In this document: positions 17,684-64,000 of the stretch, piece by piece | How the letters are laid out: the number at the start of each line of letters is the position of its first letter | How positions within the stretch are numbered: position 1 is the first letter of the stretch | Source of the DNA: Leptotrichia shahii | GTDB lineage: Bacteria > Fusobacteriota > Fusobacteriia > Fusobacteriales > Leptotrichiaceae | Direction: 5' to 3' | Length of the DNA: 64,000 nt | Assembly: GCF_008327825.1 (NCBI RefSeq) | Contig: NZ_AP019827.1 | Span: 1,550,001-1,614,000 of the forward strand | Notes under the pieces: model-generated | Told to the model about the DNA's origin: nothing | Seen by the model: the letters and a program-made list of their open reading frames with translations, nothing else | Databases searched by the model: none | Translations under genes and position numbers: made by a program

Positions 17684-18520
17684 ATGAACAATAATAATTT
17701 AGAAGAAAAGAATCAGGAAATACAAGAAGAATTAAAAAATGAAAAAAATAATGAAACAGAAAATCTGAAAGTTCGGAAGAATATAAGTAAAAATGAGAAA
17801 TTAAACCATATTGATTTGTCAATTTATAATGAACTTGATGATTTTGCTGCAGAAGTGCTAGATACTGATAATTTTTTAAAGTATATAGAAGCTAGAAGAG
17901 AATACTTGTTTGAAGCTGAAGAAGCTGTCAAAAAGTATTTGGGAAAAGAATTTTTAAATGATTCTGAAAATAAGATTAGCACATTTTCAGATTTCTACTA
18001 TCAATATTTAGTAAAGTATTCAGATAATTATTTTTATAAATTTGCAGCAAAAGGTTATACAGATGGATTTAGGGAATTGCTTGAAAAAAAAGGTATAAAT
18101 CCTGACAGCTTAAATATAAAATGGGATAATATACGTTTAAAAGAACTAGAATATGATGAATCTCTTGTGGATATACTGTATTCAATTGTAAATTATGAGC
18201 TAGAGCATCGTGGATATTCTATTTTTGGAATAAATATGGGATATGAATCAACTTTATACTTTATTGTTTCAGAAAAGGCTTTTTTAAGAATTGATAACGA
18301 ACCAGAATTATTCACAATTTTTGATATCGGATTTTTAGAAACAATTTATAATGAAATTTATGAAGTTGTGGGTGATCTTGGAACTGAAAATGTTAGAGCT
18401 GGAGATTTTTTAGAAAAACGTGGAAATGAATATTACACTTTATTTTCAGATTCAAGTAAAAATGTAGTAATTGAAAATATTGATGAAAATGATGAATCAA
18501 AAATAAAGATAATTTTATAA
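17684..18520 (+). CDS. Unknown protein with acidic, low-complexity N-terminus
   Basis: The ATG at 17684 follows GGGAGTCAAG; the in-frame GTG at 17672 lies too close to that site. The first 45 residues are Asn/Glu/Lys-rich and probably disordered. The remaining ~230 residues look globular, with a hydrophobic strand pattern near YSIFGINMGYESTLYFIVSE. There is no signal peptide, so it is cytoplasmic. It ends 19 nt before the DUF4250 gene, so the two are probably co-transcribed. No confident family assignment. Confidence 0.7.
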   Translation: MNNNNLEEKNQEIQEELKNEKNNETENLKVRKNISKNEKLNHIDLSIYNELDDFAAEVLDTDNFLKYIEARREYLFEAEEAVKKYLGKEFLNDSENKISTFSDFYYQYLVKYSDNYFYKFAAKGYTDGFRELLEKKGINPDSLNIKWDNIRLKELEYDESLVDILYSIVNYELEHRGYSIFGINMGYESTLYFIVSEKAFLRIDNEPELFTIFDIGFLETIYNEIYEVVGDLGTENVRAGDFLEKRGNEYYTLFSDSSKNVVIENIDENDESKIKIIL

Positions 18521-18539
18521 AAACAAATAGGGAGATGAA

Positions 18540-18728
18540 ATGATAAATTTTGAAACTAAAGATATAATGCTGCTTTATAGCCTTGTAAATATGAAATTAC
18601 GTGATGAATTTTTAGATTTGGATGATTTGGCAAATTATTATGGCATTGATAAAGATAGCTTGTTAAATAGATTTTTAAAAGCTGGATATGAATATTCAGA
18701 AAGTGAAAATCAATTTAAGAGAATATAA
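18540..18728 (+). CDS. DUF4250 family small protein
   Basis: A 62 aa protein with the pattern of DUF4250: MLLYSLVNMKLRDEFLDLDDLANYYGIDKD and a C-terminal GYEYSESENQF. The family is widespread in anaerobes and resembles a small helix-turn-helix, but its role is unknown. A GGGAGATGAA ribosome site precedes the ATG. Confidence 0.8.
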   Translation: MINFETKDIMLLYSLVNMKLRDEFLDLDDLANYYGIDKDSLLNRFLKAGYEYSESENQFKRI

Positions 18729-18842
18729 TTTACTATTTAGATAAATAAAATATTATTTTTAAATAAAATTTAGTATAAATTATAAAATTTGAATAAAGTA
18801 AAGAAATAAAAAACTTTACTTTATTAGGAAAGTAGATGATTT

Positions 18843-19337
18843 ATGAAAAATATAGTATTAATTGGAATGCCTGGTTGCGGGAAAAGTACGATTGGGTATC
18901 GGATGTCTCAAAAAATTAATTATTCCTTTTTTGATGCTGATAAATATTTGGAAGAAAAGGAAAATAGAATTATTTCAGATATTTTTTCAAAGGAAGGCGA
19001 AGAATATTTCAGAAAACTTGAAACGAAATATTTAAAAGACCTTTCTAAAAAAGAACAAATCATTATTTCAACTGGTGGAGGAGCTGTTAAAAAAAAGGAA
19101 AATATTGATATTTTGAAACAAAATGGGATCATTATATTTCTTAACAGAACAATTGAAGATATTTCAAAGGAAAACCATGAAAATAGGCCTCTTCTACAAA
19201 ATGTTGAAAATCTTTGGAAATTGTATGACGAAAGAATAAATTTATATAGAAAATATGCGGATATTATAATAAAAAATGATGATGATATGAATGTAATTGT
19301 TGAGAGAATAATTACAACTTTAAAAGGAAAACTTTAG
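18843..19337 (+). CDS. aroK: Shikimate kinase
   Basis: Phosphorylates shikimate at O3. The P-loop GMPGCGKST is at residues 8-16. FDADKYLE, the shikimate-binding FRKLE, STGGGAV and the lid Arg in NRPLL are all present. Length 164 aa is normal. aroQ follows after 25 nt, so the two are probably one transcript. Confidence 0.94.
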   Translation: MKNIVLIGMPGCGKSTIGYRMSQKINYSFFDADKYLEEKENRIISDIFSKEGEEYFRKLETKYLKDLSKKEQIIISTGGGAVKKKENIDILKQNGIIIFLNRTIEDISKENHENRPLLQNVENLWKLYDERINLYRKYADIIIKNDDDMNVIVERIITTLKGKL

Positions 19338-19362
19338 ATTAAACAATAATGAGGTGTAAAAA

Positions 19363-19803
19363 ATGAAAAAAATAATGATTATAAATGGACCTAATCTAAA
19401 TTTCTTGGGAATCAGGGAAAAAAATATCTATGGAAATGATGATTATGAAAGTATTTGCAGTTATATAAAGGAAAAATTTTCAGATAAAAAAGTGAGAATA
19501 GATATTTTACAGTCAAATTCTGAAGGAAAAATTATAGATTTTCTACAATCAGCATATTTTAGAAGTTTTGATGGAATTGTGATAAATCCAGGAGCTTACA
19601 CTCATTACAGCTATGCAATTCTTGATGCAATAAAATCAATATCTGTTCCAACGGTAGAAGTTCATTTGAGTAATATTCACGAAAGGGAAGAATTTAGAAA
19701 AACTTCAGTTACAGCAGCAGCCTGTATTGCTCAAATTTATGGAAAAGGTAAGGATGGATATGTGGAAGCTATTGAGCTTCTTTTAAAAGAAAAAAATTTT
19801 TAA
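19363..19803 (+). CDS. aroQ: 3-dehydroquinate dehydratase, type II
   Basis: Dehydrates 3-dehydroquinate to 3-dehydroshikimate, two steps before aroK. Family blocks present are IINGPNLNFLGIRE, the catalytic Tyr in NIYG, QSNSEGKIIDFLQ, NPGAYTHYSYAILDA with the catalytic His/Tyr region, and VEVHLSNIHEREEFRKTS. Length 146 aa is typical. It lies in the shikimate cluster. Confidence 0.95.
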   Translation: MKKIMIINGPNLNFLGIREKNIYGNDDYESICSYIKEKFSDKKVRIDILQSNSEGKIIDFLQSAYFRSFDGIVINPGAYTHYSYAILDAIKSISVPTVEVHLSNIHEREEFRKTSVTAAACIAQIYGKGKDGYVEAIELLLKEKNF

Positions 19804-56645: not shown

Positions 56646-56770
56646 CTGAACCTCCCACGACTAAAGTCACAGGGTTCTAAAATCTTTAAAAACATTTAAA
56701 AATTTTCTAAGAAGTTTGATAGCTTTACACTACCCTTATTCTTTTAGGCGTGTCCAGCTCACCTCTATTG
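56646..56770 (-). ncRNA. Predicted omega (guide) RNA region at the IStron right end, copy 2
   Basis: The right-end hairpin GAACCCTGTGACTTTAGTC...GGGAGGTTC (56648-56677) differs from copy 1 by C-to-T and T-to-C changes that lie in the variable flanks of the inner stem. The predicted guide is AATTCTGAATTGAAAAAA from exon 2. The 5' limit is estimated. Confidence 0.5.
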
Positions 56771-57972
56771 TATAGGATACTTAAATCCACAACTTTACTT
56801 TTTCTTAAAATATTTAATGTTCCATTACAATCCGCATTTATGAGTTTACCTGCACTTGTTTGATATAGTCCTCTTTTTATTCTTTTTCCACTGAATATAT
56901 ATTCTTTTTGATTTTCTTTATCATATATCGGGATTTCATCTCCATCAAAGAAACTTGCTTTTGATGTATAACTTTCTTCTTGCAGTTTAAATTCTATTCC
57001 ATATAGTCTACATAGATATATTAATTTATCTCTTAATTTCCCATATGGTATATTTACAAAGTTTTGATTATTTATACTTCCTATATTTGAATTTCTTTGA
57101 AAATCTTCATTATATCCTAGAACTATTCTTCCTATATCATTATTAAGGCAATAATTTATAATTATTCTTGCTGCTTTTGAAAGATAATCTTCTATACGAT
57201 TATTTCTCTTTCTAGCTATTCTCTTTTGTCTTAATGTTGTGCGGGAGGTCTTTTGCTTATCTTTTATACTATGTAATTTTGCATTTATCTTATTATAGTA
57301 TTGATTTATTGATTTTAATTTTCTACTATCTATTATGAATGAAGCTCCAGTATTTGTAACACAAGTACAAAGATTATCTATACCTAAATCAATTCCTAGT
57401 GCATTTTCTTTATTTAATTCCCTTTGAAATTCTTTTACTTCGTAAGTATATTGAATTTCAAAGTACCTAGAATGTTGTTTTGGTATTATTCTAATCTCTT
57501 TTATCTTCTTGCCTTTTAATACTGGTGGTAGCTTTATTGCGATTTCCTTATGTGTCTTTCTAAATGAATTTGAATAAGGAACTATCAGCATACCATCTTT
57601 TAATCTAACAAAACCTATAACAAGAGTTGTAAATCCATCTTTAGCAAGATATTTAGGTAATTTTATATCTTTAAAATTATATTGACCATTCCTAGCAAGT
57701 TTTAAAAGTCCAAAAAATGATTTGAAACTTCCGTCTACTTCTTTTAAAATTTGTTGAGCCATATTAGAATTTAACTTCTTATAGTTCTCACTATTTTTAA
57801 GCATTTTATAGTTTTCGTTATAACTTAAATACTTTTTCTTATTAAAATAATACTGTCTAATATTATATATAGTTTCATTAGTTAAGTTCTTGGCTATATG
57901 AGATAAATATTTTAAATTCCTAAACTCCTTTTTACTAAGATGTTTTACCTGTTGTTTTAATGTTAAATACAT
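56725..57972 (-). CDS. tnpB: TnpB RNA-guided nuclease (IS605 OrfB), IStron copy 2
   Basis: 415 aa from MYLTLKQQVKHLSKKEF. RuvC-like residues are Asp195 (GIDLGIDN), Glu289 (VLGYNED) and Asp381 (NADCNGTLNI). As in copy 1 there is no CxxC pair. The last motif has NGTLNI where copy 1 has NGALNI. GGAGG lies 8 nt before the ATG, and TGGTATAAT upstream. A one-residue length difference (YNFKDIKLPK vs YNGKIKLPK) and scattered substitutions show separate evolution rather than very recent duplication. Confidence 0.93.
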   Translation of the reverse strand: MYLTLKQQVKHLSKKEFRNLKYLSHIAKNLTNETIYNIRQYYFNKKKYLSYNENYKMLKNSENYKKLNSNMAQQILKEVDGSFKSFFGLLKLARNGQYNFKDIKLPKYLAKDGFTTLVIGFVRLKDGMLIVPYSNSFRKTHKEIAIKLPPVLKGKKIKEIRIIPKQHSRYFEIQYTYEVKEFQRELNKENALGIDLGIDNLCTCVTNTGASFIIDSRKLKSINQYYNKINAKLHSIKDKQKTSRTTLRQKRIARKRNNRIEDYLSKAARIIINYCLNNDIGRIVLGYNEDFQRNSNIGSINNQNFVNIPYGKLRDKLIYLCRLYGIEFKLQEESYTSKASFFDGDEIPIYDKENQKEYIFSGKRIKRGLYQTSAGKLINADCNGTLNILRKSKVVDLSILYNRGELDTPKRIRVV

Positions 57973-58969: not shown

Positions 58970-59821
58970 TTACTTTTCTAAATATTTTTTCAATTTTTCA
59001 TAATTTTTCTTTGCCTCTTCATACCCAATGTTATAAACTTTCTGTAACTTATCTCTATTTTTCTCAATTCTTCCCAACTTCAGCGGAACTGACGGCTGAA
59101 TCACAAAAATTTCCCCCTTTTTCTCTAAATCATAAATATGATCCAAAGTCGCATTATATCGACTGTATCTTGTTTTCATAAGCTCCACAAATTTAGGATA
59201 TTTTTTATATCTTATTGCTGAAATTGTTCCTAACCTGCTCTGTTTCTTACGATAATTTTTATCTCTCGTCAGCACCACGATATTTTTTGTATTTCCCTTT
59301 TTTATAGAATAATCTAAAGGAATCGGATCAGAAACCCCTCCATCTAAGTAATTTTTTCCATTTAATTTAACAAATCTAGATAAAAACGGAAGCGAAGCCG
59401 ACGCCCTTAAAGTATCAATTTCCTTTATCGCATCTTTAACCACAGGATATTCCGCCTCTCCAGTTTCACAGTTTGTAACAACTGCTTGAAATTCTGTCTT
59501 ACTATTTTTAAAAGTTTCATTATCAAACGGATTATATTTTTCAGGAATATCGTGATACGCATATTGTTCCTCAAAAAAATCTCCAGTCTTTATCAAATTA
59601 TAAAAACTTGCATATTCTCTCTTATTTATATGATCCGCAATTGCATTAAATCCTCTTTTATACTGTTTTGAAGTATAACTTGCCCCCAATGCCGCCCCAG
59701 CTGACACTCCAATCAAATTATCCACTTCGATATTTTTTTCTAGAAAAAAATCTAAAACTCCCGCAGTAAAAATCCCTCTCATTCCTCCACCTTCAAGAAC
59801 TAACGCTGTTTTTCTATTCAT
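58970..59821 (-). CDS. Patatin-like phospholipase
   Basis: 283 aa from the ATG at 59821 (AAGGGG 9 nt upstream). The oxyanion motif is LEGGGMRGIFTAG, the nucleophile elbow is GVSAGAALG with the catalytic Ser, and the dyad Asp is in YLDGGVSDPIP. No signal peptide, so probably a cytoplasmic or membrane-associated lipid hydrolase, RssA/YjjU-like. The substrate is unknown. It begins a separate minus-strand unit divergent from the tnpA/cysteine desulfurase unit. Confidence 0.9.
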   Translation of the reverse strand: MNRKTALVLEGGGMRGIFTAGVLDFFLEKNIEVDNLIGVSAGAALGASYTSKQYKRGFNAIADHINKREYASFYNLIKTGDFFEEQYAYHDIPEKYNPFDNETFKNSKTEFQAVVTNCETGEAEYPVVKDAIKEIDTLRASASLPFLSRFVKLNGKNYLDGGVSDPIPLDYSIKKGNTKNIVVLTRDKNYRKKQSRLGTISAIRYKKYPKFVELMKTRYSRYNATLDHIYDLEKKGEIFVIQPSVPLKLGRIEKNRDKLQKVYNIGYEEAKKNYEKLKKYLEK

Positions 59822-60005
59822 CAGTTTCATCCCCTTCAATACTATTTTACATTATTATACACCTATTAATCATATTTTTCTACTTTTTTTAATAAACCTT
59901 AGCAATTCAAATCTTATTTATTTTAATAAGATCTAGCAAAAAATCTCCAACTTCTACAAGTGGAAAATACCACAATTAACATTGCAATTTATATTATGAA
60001 AAAAT

Positions 60006-60034
60006 TTGAAAAAATAAAATGTTTATGATATAAT
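60006..60034 (+). promoter_or_regulatory. Strong promoter for tnpA and the cysteine desulfurase
   Basis: TTGAAA (60006-60011), 17 nt, then TATAAT (60029-60034) with a TG one base before it (extended -10). It lies 36 nt before the tnpA ATG. It probably drives the downstream cysteine desulfurase too. Confidence 0.75.
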
Positions 60035-60070
60035 TTATTCAGTAAAATAACTTAAAAGAGGTTAATAACA

Positions 60071-60472
60071 ATGTCATATAATAATAATTATTATTCAGTC
60101 TTTAACATAAATTATCGTATGATTTTTTGTATAAAATATCGGAAAAAAGTCATTAATGATGAAATTTCTAACAGATTGAAAGAAATTTTTGAAAAAATAT
60201 GTCCAAAATACAATATCATTCTTAAAGAATGGGAACACAATATTGATCATATCCGTATGTTGATTAATGCCAAACCGAATACTGAGCTTTCTAAGTTTGT
60301 GAATACTTACAAGAGTGCTTCCAGCAGATTGATAAAAAAAGATTTCCCCGAAATAAGAGAAAAATTATGGAAAGAGTATTTTTGGAGCAGAAGTTATTTA
60401 GTTATGAGTGTTGGGGATGCACCACTAGAAATAATGAATAAATATATTCAAGAACAAAAGGAGAAAATTTAA
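60071..60472 (+). CDS. tnpA: IS200/IS605 family transposase TnpA, catalytic His changed
   Basis: 133 aa Y1-type single-strand transposase. Typical blocks are CIKYRKKVINDEISNRLKEIF, AKPNTELSKFVNTYKSASSRLIKKDFP, WKEYFWSRSYL and the catalytic Tyr at about 125 (NKYIQEQ). The metal-binding HUH motif, usually DHxHxLI, reads DHIRMLI: the second His is Arg (codon CGT), so it should be inactive. The stop is 2 nt before the next gene, leaving no room for a right end. It looks like a fixed remnant, not a mobile unit, and is 1.2 kb from IStron copy 2. Confidence 0.9.
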   Translation: MSYNNNYYSVFNINYRMIFCIKYRKKVINDEISNRLKEIFEKICPKYNIILKEWEHNIDHIRMLINAKPNTELSKFVNTYKSASSRLIKKDFPEIREKLWKEYFWSRSYLVMSVGDAPLEIMNKYIQEQKEKI

Positions 60473-60474
60473 AG

Positions 60475-61611
60475 ATGAAAATAGTATATTTAGATAATGC
60501 TGCAACTACAAAAATGTCCAACAAAGTAATGGAAGAGATGACAAAATCATTTAGCGAAAATTATGGAAATCCATCTTCTGTACATTCATTGGGACAACGT
60601 GCAAAGTCAGCTATAGAAAGGGCAAGACATATTGTAGCACAGAATTTGAAAGTTGAAACGACTGAAATTGTGTTTACATCTGGCGGAGCTGAGGGGAATA
60701 ATCTTGCGATAAGGGGATTTTTAAAGGCGAACAATGATAAAGGAAAACATATTATAACATCTAAGATTGAGCATTCTACGATTTTAAAAACCTTTGAGCA
60801 GCTGGAAAATGAAGGGTATGAAGTTTCATATATTGGTGTCGATGAAAAGGGAGTTGTGGATATTGAAAAATTGAAGCAGGAATTGAGGGAAGATACGGCA
60901 CTTGTTTCGATAATGTTTGTGAATAATGAAACTGGGGTTATTCAGCCGATTAAGGAAATTGGGGAAATTTTGGCAGAGAGAAATATATTTTTTCATGCAG
61001 ATGCAGTTCAGGCAATAGGAAAATTGAAAATTTTACCAAAAGATTTGAAGATAACTGCTTTGACAGCAACAGCTCATAAATTTTACGGGCCTAAGGGAGC
61101 AGGATTTGTATTTATTGATAAAAAATATTCACTTGAAAAGGAAATCTGGGGTGGCTCACAGGAAAGGAACAGAAGGGCTGGAACAGAAAATGTTCACGGA
61201 ATTTTGGGACTTGGTGTGGCACTTGAGGAAGTTTATGAAAATTTGGAAGAAATATCAGAAAAAGAAGATAAACTGCAAAATTATCTAGAAAATAAACTGA
61301 AAACTGAAATTAAAAAATTAGGTAAAAAAGTACGGATAAATGGAGAAAAATCCAATAGAATAAAAACAACAACAAACGTTTACATAGAAGGAGTGGATAT
61401 TCAAATGCTGCTGGTAGCACTAGATTTAAGAGGAATCTGCATAAGCGGCGGTTCAGCATGCATGTCAGGCTCGCTTGAAAATTCGCACGTTTTGAAGGCT
61501 ATGGGACTTATCGATGAGGAGTTGAAAGGTTCATTTAGAATTAGCATTGGGAAAGACACTACTGTTAAAGAAATAGATTATTTTATAGAAAATTTAATTG
61601 AAGTTATTTAA
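60475..61611 (+). CDS. Cysteine desulfurase (NifS/IscS family)
   Basis: PLP enzyme that takes sulfur from cysteine for iron-sulfur clusters or thionucleosides. 378 aa. Substrate and PLP contacts are in YLDNAATTKMSNKV and YGNPSSVHSLGQRAK; the PLP lysine is in TATAHKFYGPKGAG; and the active-site Cys is in SGGSACMSGSLENSHVLKAMG. No IscU partner is adjacent. Its AAGGAG ribosome site lies inside the 3' end of tnpA, and the start is 2 nt after that stop, so translation is coupled to the transposase ORF. Confidence 0.92.
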   Translation: MKIVYLDNAATTKMSNKVMEEMTKSFSENYGNPSSVHSLGQRAKSAIERARHIVAQNLKVETTEIVFTSGGAEGNNLAIRGFLKANNDKGKHIITSKIEHSTILKTFEQLENEGYEVSYIGVDEKGVVDIEKLKQELREDTALVSIMFVNNETGVIQPIKEIGEILAERNIFFHADAVQAIGKLKILPKDLKITALTATAHKFYGPKGAGFVFIDKKYSLEKEIWGGSQERNRRAGTENVHGILGLGVALEEVYENLEEISEKEDKLQNYLENKLKTEIKKLGKKVRINGEKSNRIKTTTNVYIEGVDIQMLLVALDLRGICISGGSACMSGSLENSHVLKAMGLIDEELKGSFRISIGKDTTVKEIDYFIENLIEVI

Positions 61612-61711: not shown

Positions 61712-62503
61712 ATGAATAATATAAAAGCAATATTTATGGATTTGGATGGAACGGTGCTAACAAGTGAGCATAAGGTTTCGGAAAATTTGATAAGAAAATT
61801 GAGAGAAGTGGAAGAAAAAGGAGTGAAAATATTTATTGCGACTGGAAGAACCTTTTCTTCGTCAAAGCCTTTTGTGGAAATGCTGGGGATAAAAAATCCA
61901 GTAATTAATTATAATGGCGGAAGAATTACAAATCCTTTGAATAGTGAAGTTATTTTTGAGAAACCTGTTGAGGCACAGGATGTTAAGGAACTTATTAAAG
62001 TTTCGAGGGAAAAAAGAATTCATTTGAATTTATATATGGATGACAAATTATATATTGAAAATGAAACAGATGAAGGTGCAAAATATTCAGAAAGCGTGGA
62101 AATTCCATATTATGTGAAAAATTTTGACGAATTTATTGGAAAAACTTCTACAAAAGCGTTATTTATTGCAGAAAATTCGATTTTACTGGAGTTAAAAAAG
62201 GAATTGGAAGAAAAATTGCCACATATTAATTTTGTATTTTCAAAACCGCATTATTTAGAATGCTTGAATAAGGAAGTAAATAAAGGGCTGGCAATAAAGG
62301 AACTGTTGAAAAAATATGATATTTCTCCAGAAGAAACAATGGCATTTGGGGATCAGTGGAATGATTTGGAAATGTTGAAGTTTGTGAAATATGGGTATCT
62401 TATGGGGAATGCTACGGAAGAGCTGAAACAGGAATTTTCAAAAGAAAGAATTACATTGTCAAATGATGAAGATGGAATTTATGAAATAATAAAAGAACTT
62501 TAG
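61712..62503 (+). CDS. HAD-superfamily Cof-type phosphatase
   Basis: 263 aa. Motif I is IFMDLDGTVLTSEHKVSE, with the nucleophile Asp at about residue 10. The cap domain (type C2B) spans about 85-190, and motif IV is MAFGDQWNDLEMLKFVKYG. Members of the YidA/Cof group hydrolyse sugar phosphates and flavin or pyridoxal phosphates; the substrate here is unknown. An AGAAAGGGAATT ribosome site precedes the ATG. Confidence 0.87.
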   Translation: MNNIKAIFMDLDGTVLTSEHKVSENLIRKLREVEEKGVKIFIATGRTFSSSKPFVEMLGIKNPVINYNGGRITNPLNSEVIFEKPVEAQDVKELIKVSREKRIHLNLYMDDKLYIENETDEGAKYSESVEIPYYVKNFDEFIGKTSTKALFIAENSILLELKKELEEKLPHINFVFSKPHYLECLNKEVNKGLAIKELLKKYDISPEETMAFGDQWNDLEMLKFVKYGYLMGNATEELKQEFSKERITLSNDEDGIYEIIKEL

Positions 62504-62536: not shown

Positions 62537-64000
62537 ATGGAAAATAAATTTGTACATTTGAAATTGCATACGGAGTATTCACTGCTTGAAGGAGTAGGGA
62601 AAATAGATGAATATGTTGAAAAGGCTAAGAAAATAGGAGTAAAAGCACTTGCAATTACCGATACTTCGATGTTTGGGGCAATCGAGTTTTTTAAGAAGTG
62701 TAAAAATGCTGGAATAAAGCCGATTATTGGACTTGAGGTGTTTCTTGATGGACTGGAGAAAGTAGGGGAGTTTTCGCTTACTTTACTTGCTAAAAATCAG
62801 AATGGGTATAAGAATTTATCAAAATTGTCGTCAATTTCATATAGCAGATTTACACGGAATCGGAATAAAATTAAGTATGATGAATTGAAAAAATATTCAG
62901 ATGACTTGTATATTTTGTCAGGTGGCATAAATAGTGAGGTTGTAAAGGGTATTCTAGATTTGGAAAATACTCAAGTTAGAAGGGTTATTGAGAAACTTGG
63001 TAAGGATTTTGGGGATAATTTTTTTATTGAAGTTCCTGCTGTGGAAAGGCTGGGAAAGGCTAGGAAAATGCTTTTTGACATTGTGCGTAAAAATAAATTT
63101 GATAATTTTGTTATTACAAACGATGTTTATTATCCAAATCGGGAAGATGCAGTTTTGCAGAAAATTGTGGAATCAATAAAAGAGGGAAGCAAAATTGATA
63201 CAGAAAAATCGGAAAATAGTGAAATTTTGTATGATGACCTATATCTAAAATCTGAAAATGAAATAGAAAAAAGTTTTGAAAATAAGGAATATAGCGAGTT
63301 TTATGAAACTGGAATTAATAATGTGGAAAAAATTGTGGAAAACTGCAATGTTGATTTTGAGTTTCATCATTTTAAATTTCCAAAATATTCGTTGCCACAA
63401 AATGTAAGTGAAAAGGAATTTTTGCGAAATCTAGTATTTGAGGGGCTTTTTCACAAATACTTGAAAAAATCTGTTTCAGATTCTGAAAAATTGCAGCTGG
63501 ATAAAAATTTTGAGATAATTGAAAAAGAGATTGCAAAAGATGAAATTGCTGGGCAGAAATTGAAGGAAGTTAAAATTCGGGAAGAATTATTAAAAAATAA
63601 TTTGGAAAATGTTTTGGAGCGTGCAGAGTATGAGCTGGAAATTATTGATAAAATGGGATACAATGGATATTTTATCATTGTCTGGGATTTTATAAAATTC
63701 TCACGTGAAAATGGGGTTTATGTTGGGCCTGGAAGGGGTTCTGCGGCTGGGAGCATTGTTTCGTATGCCTTGAATATTACGGAAATTGATCCGATTGAAT
63801 ATAATCTGATTTTTGAGCGGTTTTTGAATCCTGAACGTATTTCGATGCCTGATATTGACATAGATTTTGATCAGGAACAGCGGGAAATTGTCATAAATTA
63901 TGTGGTGAATAAATATGGGGCGGAATACGTGGCACATATTATTACGTTTGGAACGCTAAAGGCTAGGCTTGCGATTCGTGATGTGGGGCGTGTGTTAAAT
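62537..64000 (+). CDS. dnaE: DNA polymerase III alpha subunit, N-terminal part (runs off window)
   Basis: Replicative polymerase. The ATG at 62537 starts MENKFVHLKLHTEYSLLEGVG, the PHP domain (residues 1-200) with ALAITDTSMFGAIEF and IKPIIGLEVFL. The polymerase core follows: MGYNGYFIIVWDFI, GPGRGSAAGSIVSYAL (about residue 396) and the catalytic PDIDIDFD (about 438). About 488 residues are visible; a full DnaE is 1000-1200. A TAGGTAGAAATT leader gives a weak ribosome site. Confidence 0.96.
   Translation, partial: MENKFVHLKLHTEYSLLEGVGKIDEYVEKAKKIGVKALAITDTSMFGAIEFFKKCKNAGIKPIIGLEVFLDGLEKVGEFSLTLLAKNQNGYKNLSKLSSISYSRFTRNRNKIKYDELKKYSDDLYILSGGINSEVVKGILDLENTQVRRVIEKLGKDFGDNFFIEVPAVERLGKARKMLFDIVRKNKFDNFVITNDVYYPNREDAVLQKIVESIKEGSKIDTEKSENSEILYDDLYLKSENEIEKSFENKEYSEFYETGINNVEKIVENCNVDFEFHHFKFPKYSLPQNVSEKEFLRNLVFEGLFHKYLKKSVSDSEKLQLDKNFEIIEKEIAKDEIAGQKLKEVKIREELLKNNLENVLERAEYELEIIDKMGYNGYFIIVWDFIKFSRENGVYVGPGRGSAAGSIVSYALNITEIDPIEYNLIFERFLNPERISMPDIDIDFDQEQREIVINYVVNKYGAEYVAHIITFGTLKARLAIRDVGRVLN

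Follow-up and report, generated by a model that had tools for sequence, protein, structure and literature searches.

A broken IS605-type tnpA heading a cysteine desulfurase operon in Leptotrichia shahii: probable scar of a rearrangement with promoter capture

In the Leptotrichia shahii genome considered here (G000), a lone transposase gene, tnpA, stands immediately before a cluster encoding a cysteine desulfurase, a HAD phosphatase and the alpha subunit of DNA polymerase III. The window that we analysed is a 64,000-nucleotide stretch of this genome, and its parts are listed in Table 1; a second contig of the genome matches Leptotrichia plasmids only. We consider it very probable that the arrangement is the scar of a rearrangement breakpoint at which the cluster captured the promoter of an IS605-type element, the broken tnpA most likely being a passenger. 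The case is a further example of processes already known, in that an IS605 element lies at the breakpoint of a rearrangement and its promoter has probably been captured; it is not a new kind of system. It would nevertheless illustrate that a housekeeping gene cluster can swap its 5' control region for that of a transposon while keeping its ribosome-binding site, and it cautions against reading domestication into every operon that begins with an intact transposase frame. A preliminary description of the locus had depicted a lone TnpA with a strong promoter as fused into a desulfurase operon, a picture that our analysis supports, the promoter being that of the element; the roles that it proposed for TnpA were not supported, as discussed below.

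Table 1. Features of the fusion locus (window coordinates; L001 is an intact copy of the element in G000, with tnpA, tnpB and both ends)
Feature	Position	Strand	Remarks
Gene for a patatin-like phospholipase, flanking the breakpoint on the left	58970..59839	-	Pfam PF01734 and PF19890
Sequence natively upstream of the patatin gene	59840..59900		match to the uninterrupted G003 locus stops at 59900 (blastn)
19 bp unlike flank or element	59901..59919		gap between both homology blocks
Remnant of an IS605-type element, with left end, promoter and tnpA as far as the tnpB Shine-Dalgarno	59920..60463	+	82% identity to intact copy L001
Left-end subterminal hairpin, weakened	59946..59966	+	-2.5 vs -6.7 kcal/mol in L001, folded as DNA
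Element promoter TTGAAA-17-TATAAT, extended -10, putative driver of the operon	60006..60034	+	same hexamers in L001
tnpA, 133 aa, intact frame; HUH reads HIR; H8Y, H16R, H62R; Tyr125 kept	60071..60472	+	
AAAAGGAG, junction microhomology	60456..60463	+	overlap of two homology blocks
NifS/IscS-type cysteine desulfurase	60475..61611	+	Pfam Aminotran_5, 1e-76
Cof-type HAD-IIB hydrolase (HAD phosphatase), next gene in the conserved cluster	61712..62503	+	
dnaE (DNA polymerase III alpha), runs past the window end	62537..64000	+	L175:2538-6095

The two sides of the fusion can be traced separately. On the left, the patatin side of the window is 90% identical in DNA to the patatin locus of the relative G003. 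Homology to L001 spans the whole remnant, and the desulfurase loci of G001, G002 and G003 are homologous to the window from position 60456 on (85-90% over about 1.1 kb). These last two blocks overlap by exactly 8 bp, AAAAGGAG, which serves tnpB as its Shine-Dalgarno sequence in intact elements and does the same for the desulfurase in relatives. At the fusion, the desulfurase has kept this Shine-Dalgarno but has neither its native leader nor the gene that lay upstream. Because the joint sits at this shared site, the tnpA stop codon, TAA, is followed by only two nucleotides (AG) before the desulfurase ATG. The spacing was correctly recorded in the preliminary description, which suggested that tnpA may persist as a leader that couples translation. 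In that case, ribosomes terminating on tnpA would re-initiate at the desulfurase start, and the frame would be kept for that purpose. The TAA-AG-ATG spacing with a Shine-Dalgarno within the tnpA tail would suit such coupling, as would the near-identical layout of tnpA and tnpB in intact elements and a desulfurase start codon predicted to be less open (0.31) than those of relatives (0.41-0.61). Against this, the spacing is a mechanical by-product of the junction, and the desulfurase retains its own Shine-Dalgarno, predicted to be as open (0.60) as in congeners without a leader open reading frame (0.53-0.60). The arrangement is also absent from relatives: in all 12 congeners the desulfurase lacks this tnpA in front, a state of affairs that the preliminary description had itself counted against a role for TnpA. 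Translational coupling thus appears unlikely.

Comparison with the congeners also reveals how the two flanks came together. A membrane gene, F0, usually precedes the desulfurase; among the mapped loci it is F0 that adjoins the desulfurase and not the patatin gene. In G002 and G003 the patatin gene lies away from the desulfurase and next to one encoding a stomatin-like protein, and in G001 and G003 the desulfurase cluster has a PTS gene at its side. In G000, the stomatin-like gene now adjoins the PTS gene at about 553438-553450, so that the two junctions are reciprocal and lie about 1.06 Mb apart. Since what remained of the one locus is now joined to what remained of the other, the fusion marks a rearrangement breakpoint; it is present in the window genome only, among the genomes compared. 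Very probably, an IS605-type element with its left end, tnpA, tnpB and right end sat at one or the other locus, and the patatin and desulfurase loci were united by a rearrangement spanning about 1.06 Mb. The element was severed at the tnpB Shine-Dalgarno and spliced, at the shared 8 bp, to the Shine-Dalgarno of the desulfurase. The comparison shows that this locus lost tnpB and the right end of the element, and on the desulfurase side the native leader together with its upstream gene. These features inspire an analogy with Helicobacter pylori, where IS605 is found at inversion breakpoints in the form of inverted element pairs (PMC8002640). In Leptotrichia, too, one of the two ends of the large rearrangement carries an element of this family; in contrast to the H. 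pylori pairs, no element sequence, tnpB or right end was found at the second, reciprocal junction. Two tnpB remnants elsewhere in G000 (1640146-1640357 and 2054474-2054722) were considered as the missing half and rejected, being divergent and located off that junction. Searches of G000 for F0 and for a LemA-like gene, run without a positive control, found neither.

The remnant itself is readily recognized. Its left end, promoter, tnpA and tnpB Shine-Dalgarno are homologous to those of resident intact tnpA-tnpB copies such as the one at G000:C1:56245 (82% identity in DNA, 85% in protein). Unlike these, it lacks tnpB and the right end, has lost the HUH motif and is fused to a host gene. In all 18 other copies tnpB starts a few nucleotides past tnpA, and 16 of the 18 match the right-end pattern; neither tnpB nor a right end was found 3' of the window tnpA, where homology to the element stops at 60463. 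The earlier statement that no transposon right end fits is therefore borne out and extended to tnpB. The idea of an IS200-like, tnpA-only element with a right end of its own was ruled out, as the 18 other copies all run into tnpB. The left end is still there, with a hairpin that folds more weakly than in L001.

The protein carries the Y1 domain of the IS200/IS605 transposases, with a match to Pfam Y1_Tnp over the entire profile (1-121 of 121; 2e-41, 141 bits) and to the NCBIfam IS200/IS605 transposase model (6e-40). The catalytic tyrosine and the glutamine that follows it (YxxxQ; Y125-IQE-Q129) are retained, as is His60. The metal-binding HUH motif is not: in alignment with the ISHp608 TnpA structures, HIR in the window protein (DHIRMLI, codon CGT) lies opposite HIH. 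Histidine occupies position 62 in 115 of 118 distinct relatives, and positions 8 and 16 in 107 of 118 each; the window protein has R, Y and R, respectively, at these sites, which are 91-97% conserved, and it has also lost an aspartate (D57N). The motif loss makes it almost certain that the enzyme is catalytically dead, and with the right end gone as well the copy would be immobile. The intact frame and the Arg in place of the second HUH His were thus accurately described at the outset and the change to HIR was rightly read as inactivating; the extent of the damage was underestimated, since H8Y and H16R had been overlooked. The weakened left end and the HAD and dnaE genes farther downstream had likewise gone unremarked. 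The preliminary description also allowed that active His in most copies would suggest a sequencing error; the element would then be live and the Arg an artefact of sequencing or assembly. His is indeed the rule, the motif reading HIH in 17 of the 18 other close tnpA copies in these genomes and HIQ in one (G002), and CGT is a single base away from CAT. An error would, however, have to explain two further near-invariant histidines lost, a decayed left-end hairpin, the missing tnpB and right end, a reciprocal junction elsewhere in the assembly and, for a single base, a copy that differs by about 51 substitutions; we regard its probability as close to negligible. The G002 copy with HIQ (L199:2696-3085) is itself decaying and one residue short, yet it has kept tnpB and the right end. 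Outside the genus, the best tnpA matches reach at most 64% identity (in a genome contig collection without Leptotrichia), and the best matches reached 64% in viral collections, over part of the length, and 57% in plasmid collections.

That the reading frame has survived can be accounted for without invoking a function. Compared with a consensus built from the mobile copies, tnpA in the window shows 30 synonymous and 21 non-synonymous differences (dS 0.55, dN 0.07; whole-branch omega 0.125), while the mobile copies among themselves average a dN of 0.0105 and a dS of 0.057, a ratio of about 0.18. Genes around tnpA differ from sister species by dS values mostly of 0.22-0.36, rising to 0.58 against G003. 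Because the dS of tnpA exceeds most of these between-species values, and because the fusion is found in one genome only, most of the divergence probably dates from before the fusion, when the element was live. For this reason, omega was dropped as proof of domestication. The same low omega, with the open frame, might be taken to mean that a catalytically dead TnpA has been retained because it binds DNA and thereby regulates its own promoter or other copies. But a long active lineage alone would yield such a value, the losses reach beyond the HUH site (H8, H16, D57N), and the left-end hairpin, which would be the target, is weakened; we find this role very improbable. A broader version, in which an HUH-less TnpA is retained as a pseudoenzyme whose translation or left-end binding sets the expression of the desulfurase/dnaE operon, seems to us improbable, and nothing in the sequence analysis would support a need for TnpA translation or for a tnpA RNA.

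In 1000 neutral simulations, amino acid changes averaged 35, with a minimum of 27, and 92% of the runs gained a stop codon. The 19 changes observed fall below this minimum and rule out plain neutrality across the whole branch; therefore, either the gene died recently or constraint acted on the frame before its death. From the simulations, the stop hazard is about 5% per neutral substitution, and 5-20 substitutions after death would leave a chance of no stop of roughly 0.8-0.4 (indels ignored). Were all 21 non-synonymous changes neutral and subsequent to death, that death would date back about 0.066 substitutions per site, and less if only the changes at conserved sites came afterwards. These figures fit a recent death, and tnpA would most likely be a young passenger pseudogene that has not yet acquired a stop. 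Some selection on the frame after the fusion is possible.

Whereas tnpA itself appears to be a passenger, its promoter is likely to be the working feature. Insertion-sequence promoters can activate neighbouring genes. The strong promoter noticed in the preliminary description proved to be a sigma-70-like site that matches the consensus at 11 of 12 positions and has a TG before the -10 hexamer. Promoter-like sites in the region are in no excess over shuffled sequence (7 vs 6.4 +/- 2.6), and the element promoter is the best of them; it is also seen in intact copies, one of which is identical over 22 nt around the -10. As in other cases of IS promoter capture, a transposon promoter lies ahead of a host gene, and no terminator-like site was found between it and the desulfurase. 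The present case differs in that rearrangement removed the native leader, the joint runs from Shine-Dalgarno to Shine-Dalgarno, tnpA forms the first open reading frame, and activation is presumed. The desulfurase, whose top NCBIfam models are NifS/IscS (mostly scoring under their equivalog cut-offs), is still under purifying selection, to judge from its divergence from G011 (dN 0.026, dS 0.262), so that its expression may be presumed, with the element promoter as the simplest source. As the nearest good promoter, this would now probably transcribe the desulfurase, HAD and dnaE genes, the last starting 33 nt past the HAD gene, with the desulfurase being translated from its own Shine-Dalgarno.

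Transcription through tnpA invites one more comparison. Salmonella IS200 produces a 5'tnpA RNA; the leader that gives rise to it contains a stem-loop masking the start of tnpA (PMC12594629), and the preliminary description had suggested a regulator of this kind. What the two cases share is a tnpA of IS200 type that is immobile and may play a part in the host, and the Salmonella precedent would allow a small tnpA-derived RNA acting in trans (PMC12594629). Unlike its Salmonella counterpart (PMC12594629), the window tnpA has no structured leader over its start codon: the predicted leader measures 29 nt and folds no better than shuffled sequences (z -0.3). An Rfam search of the locus gave no match. 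Such an RNA is, in our estimation, extremely improbable.

Other traces of these elements are scattered through the genomes. A tnpB-only derivative with the same internal tnpA deletions occurs in at least four of them and retains about 33-48 nt of tnpA together with the tnpB Shine-Dalgarno; it is found at L205:1340-2704 (G000), L181:6812-8200 and 18122-19470 (G002), L162:251-1634 (G012) and L043 (G004), and probably spreads with TnpA supplied in trans. An element remnant of about 210 bp in G003 (L178:4880-5091) consists of left and right ends only. Near the patatin gene, the window itself contains a lone TnpB of the RNA-guided nuclease family (56725-57972, minus strand), which belongs to a different subgroup and has no tnpA of its own. 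The G004 derivative lies about 180 bp upstream of the desulfurase, in opposite orientation, at a site that is empty in G012, and in G006 a different tnpA (L045) is found about 330 bp upstream, again in opposite orientation. IS200/IS605-family elements have thus inserted upstream of the same desulfurase independently in 2 of the 12 congeners, and the region may attract them.
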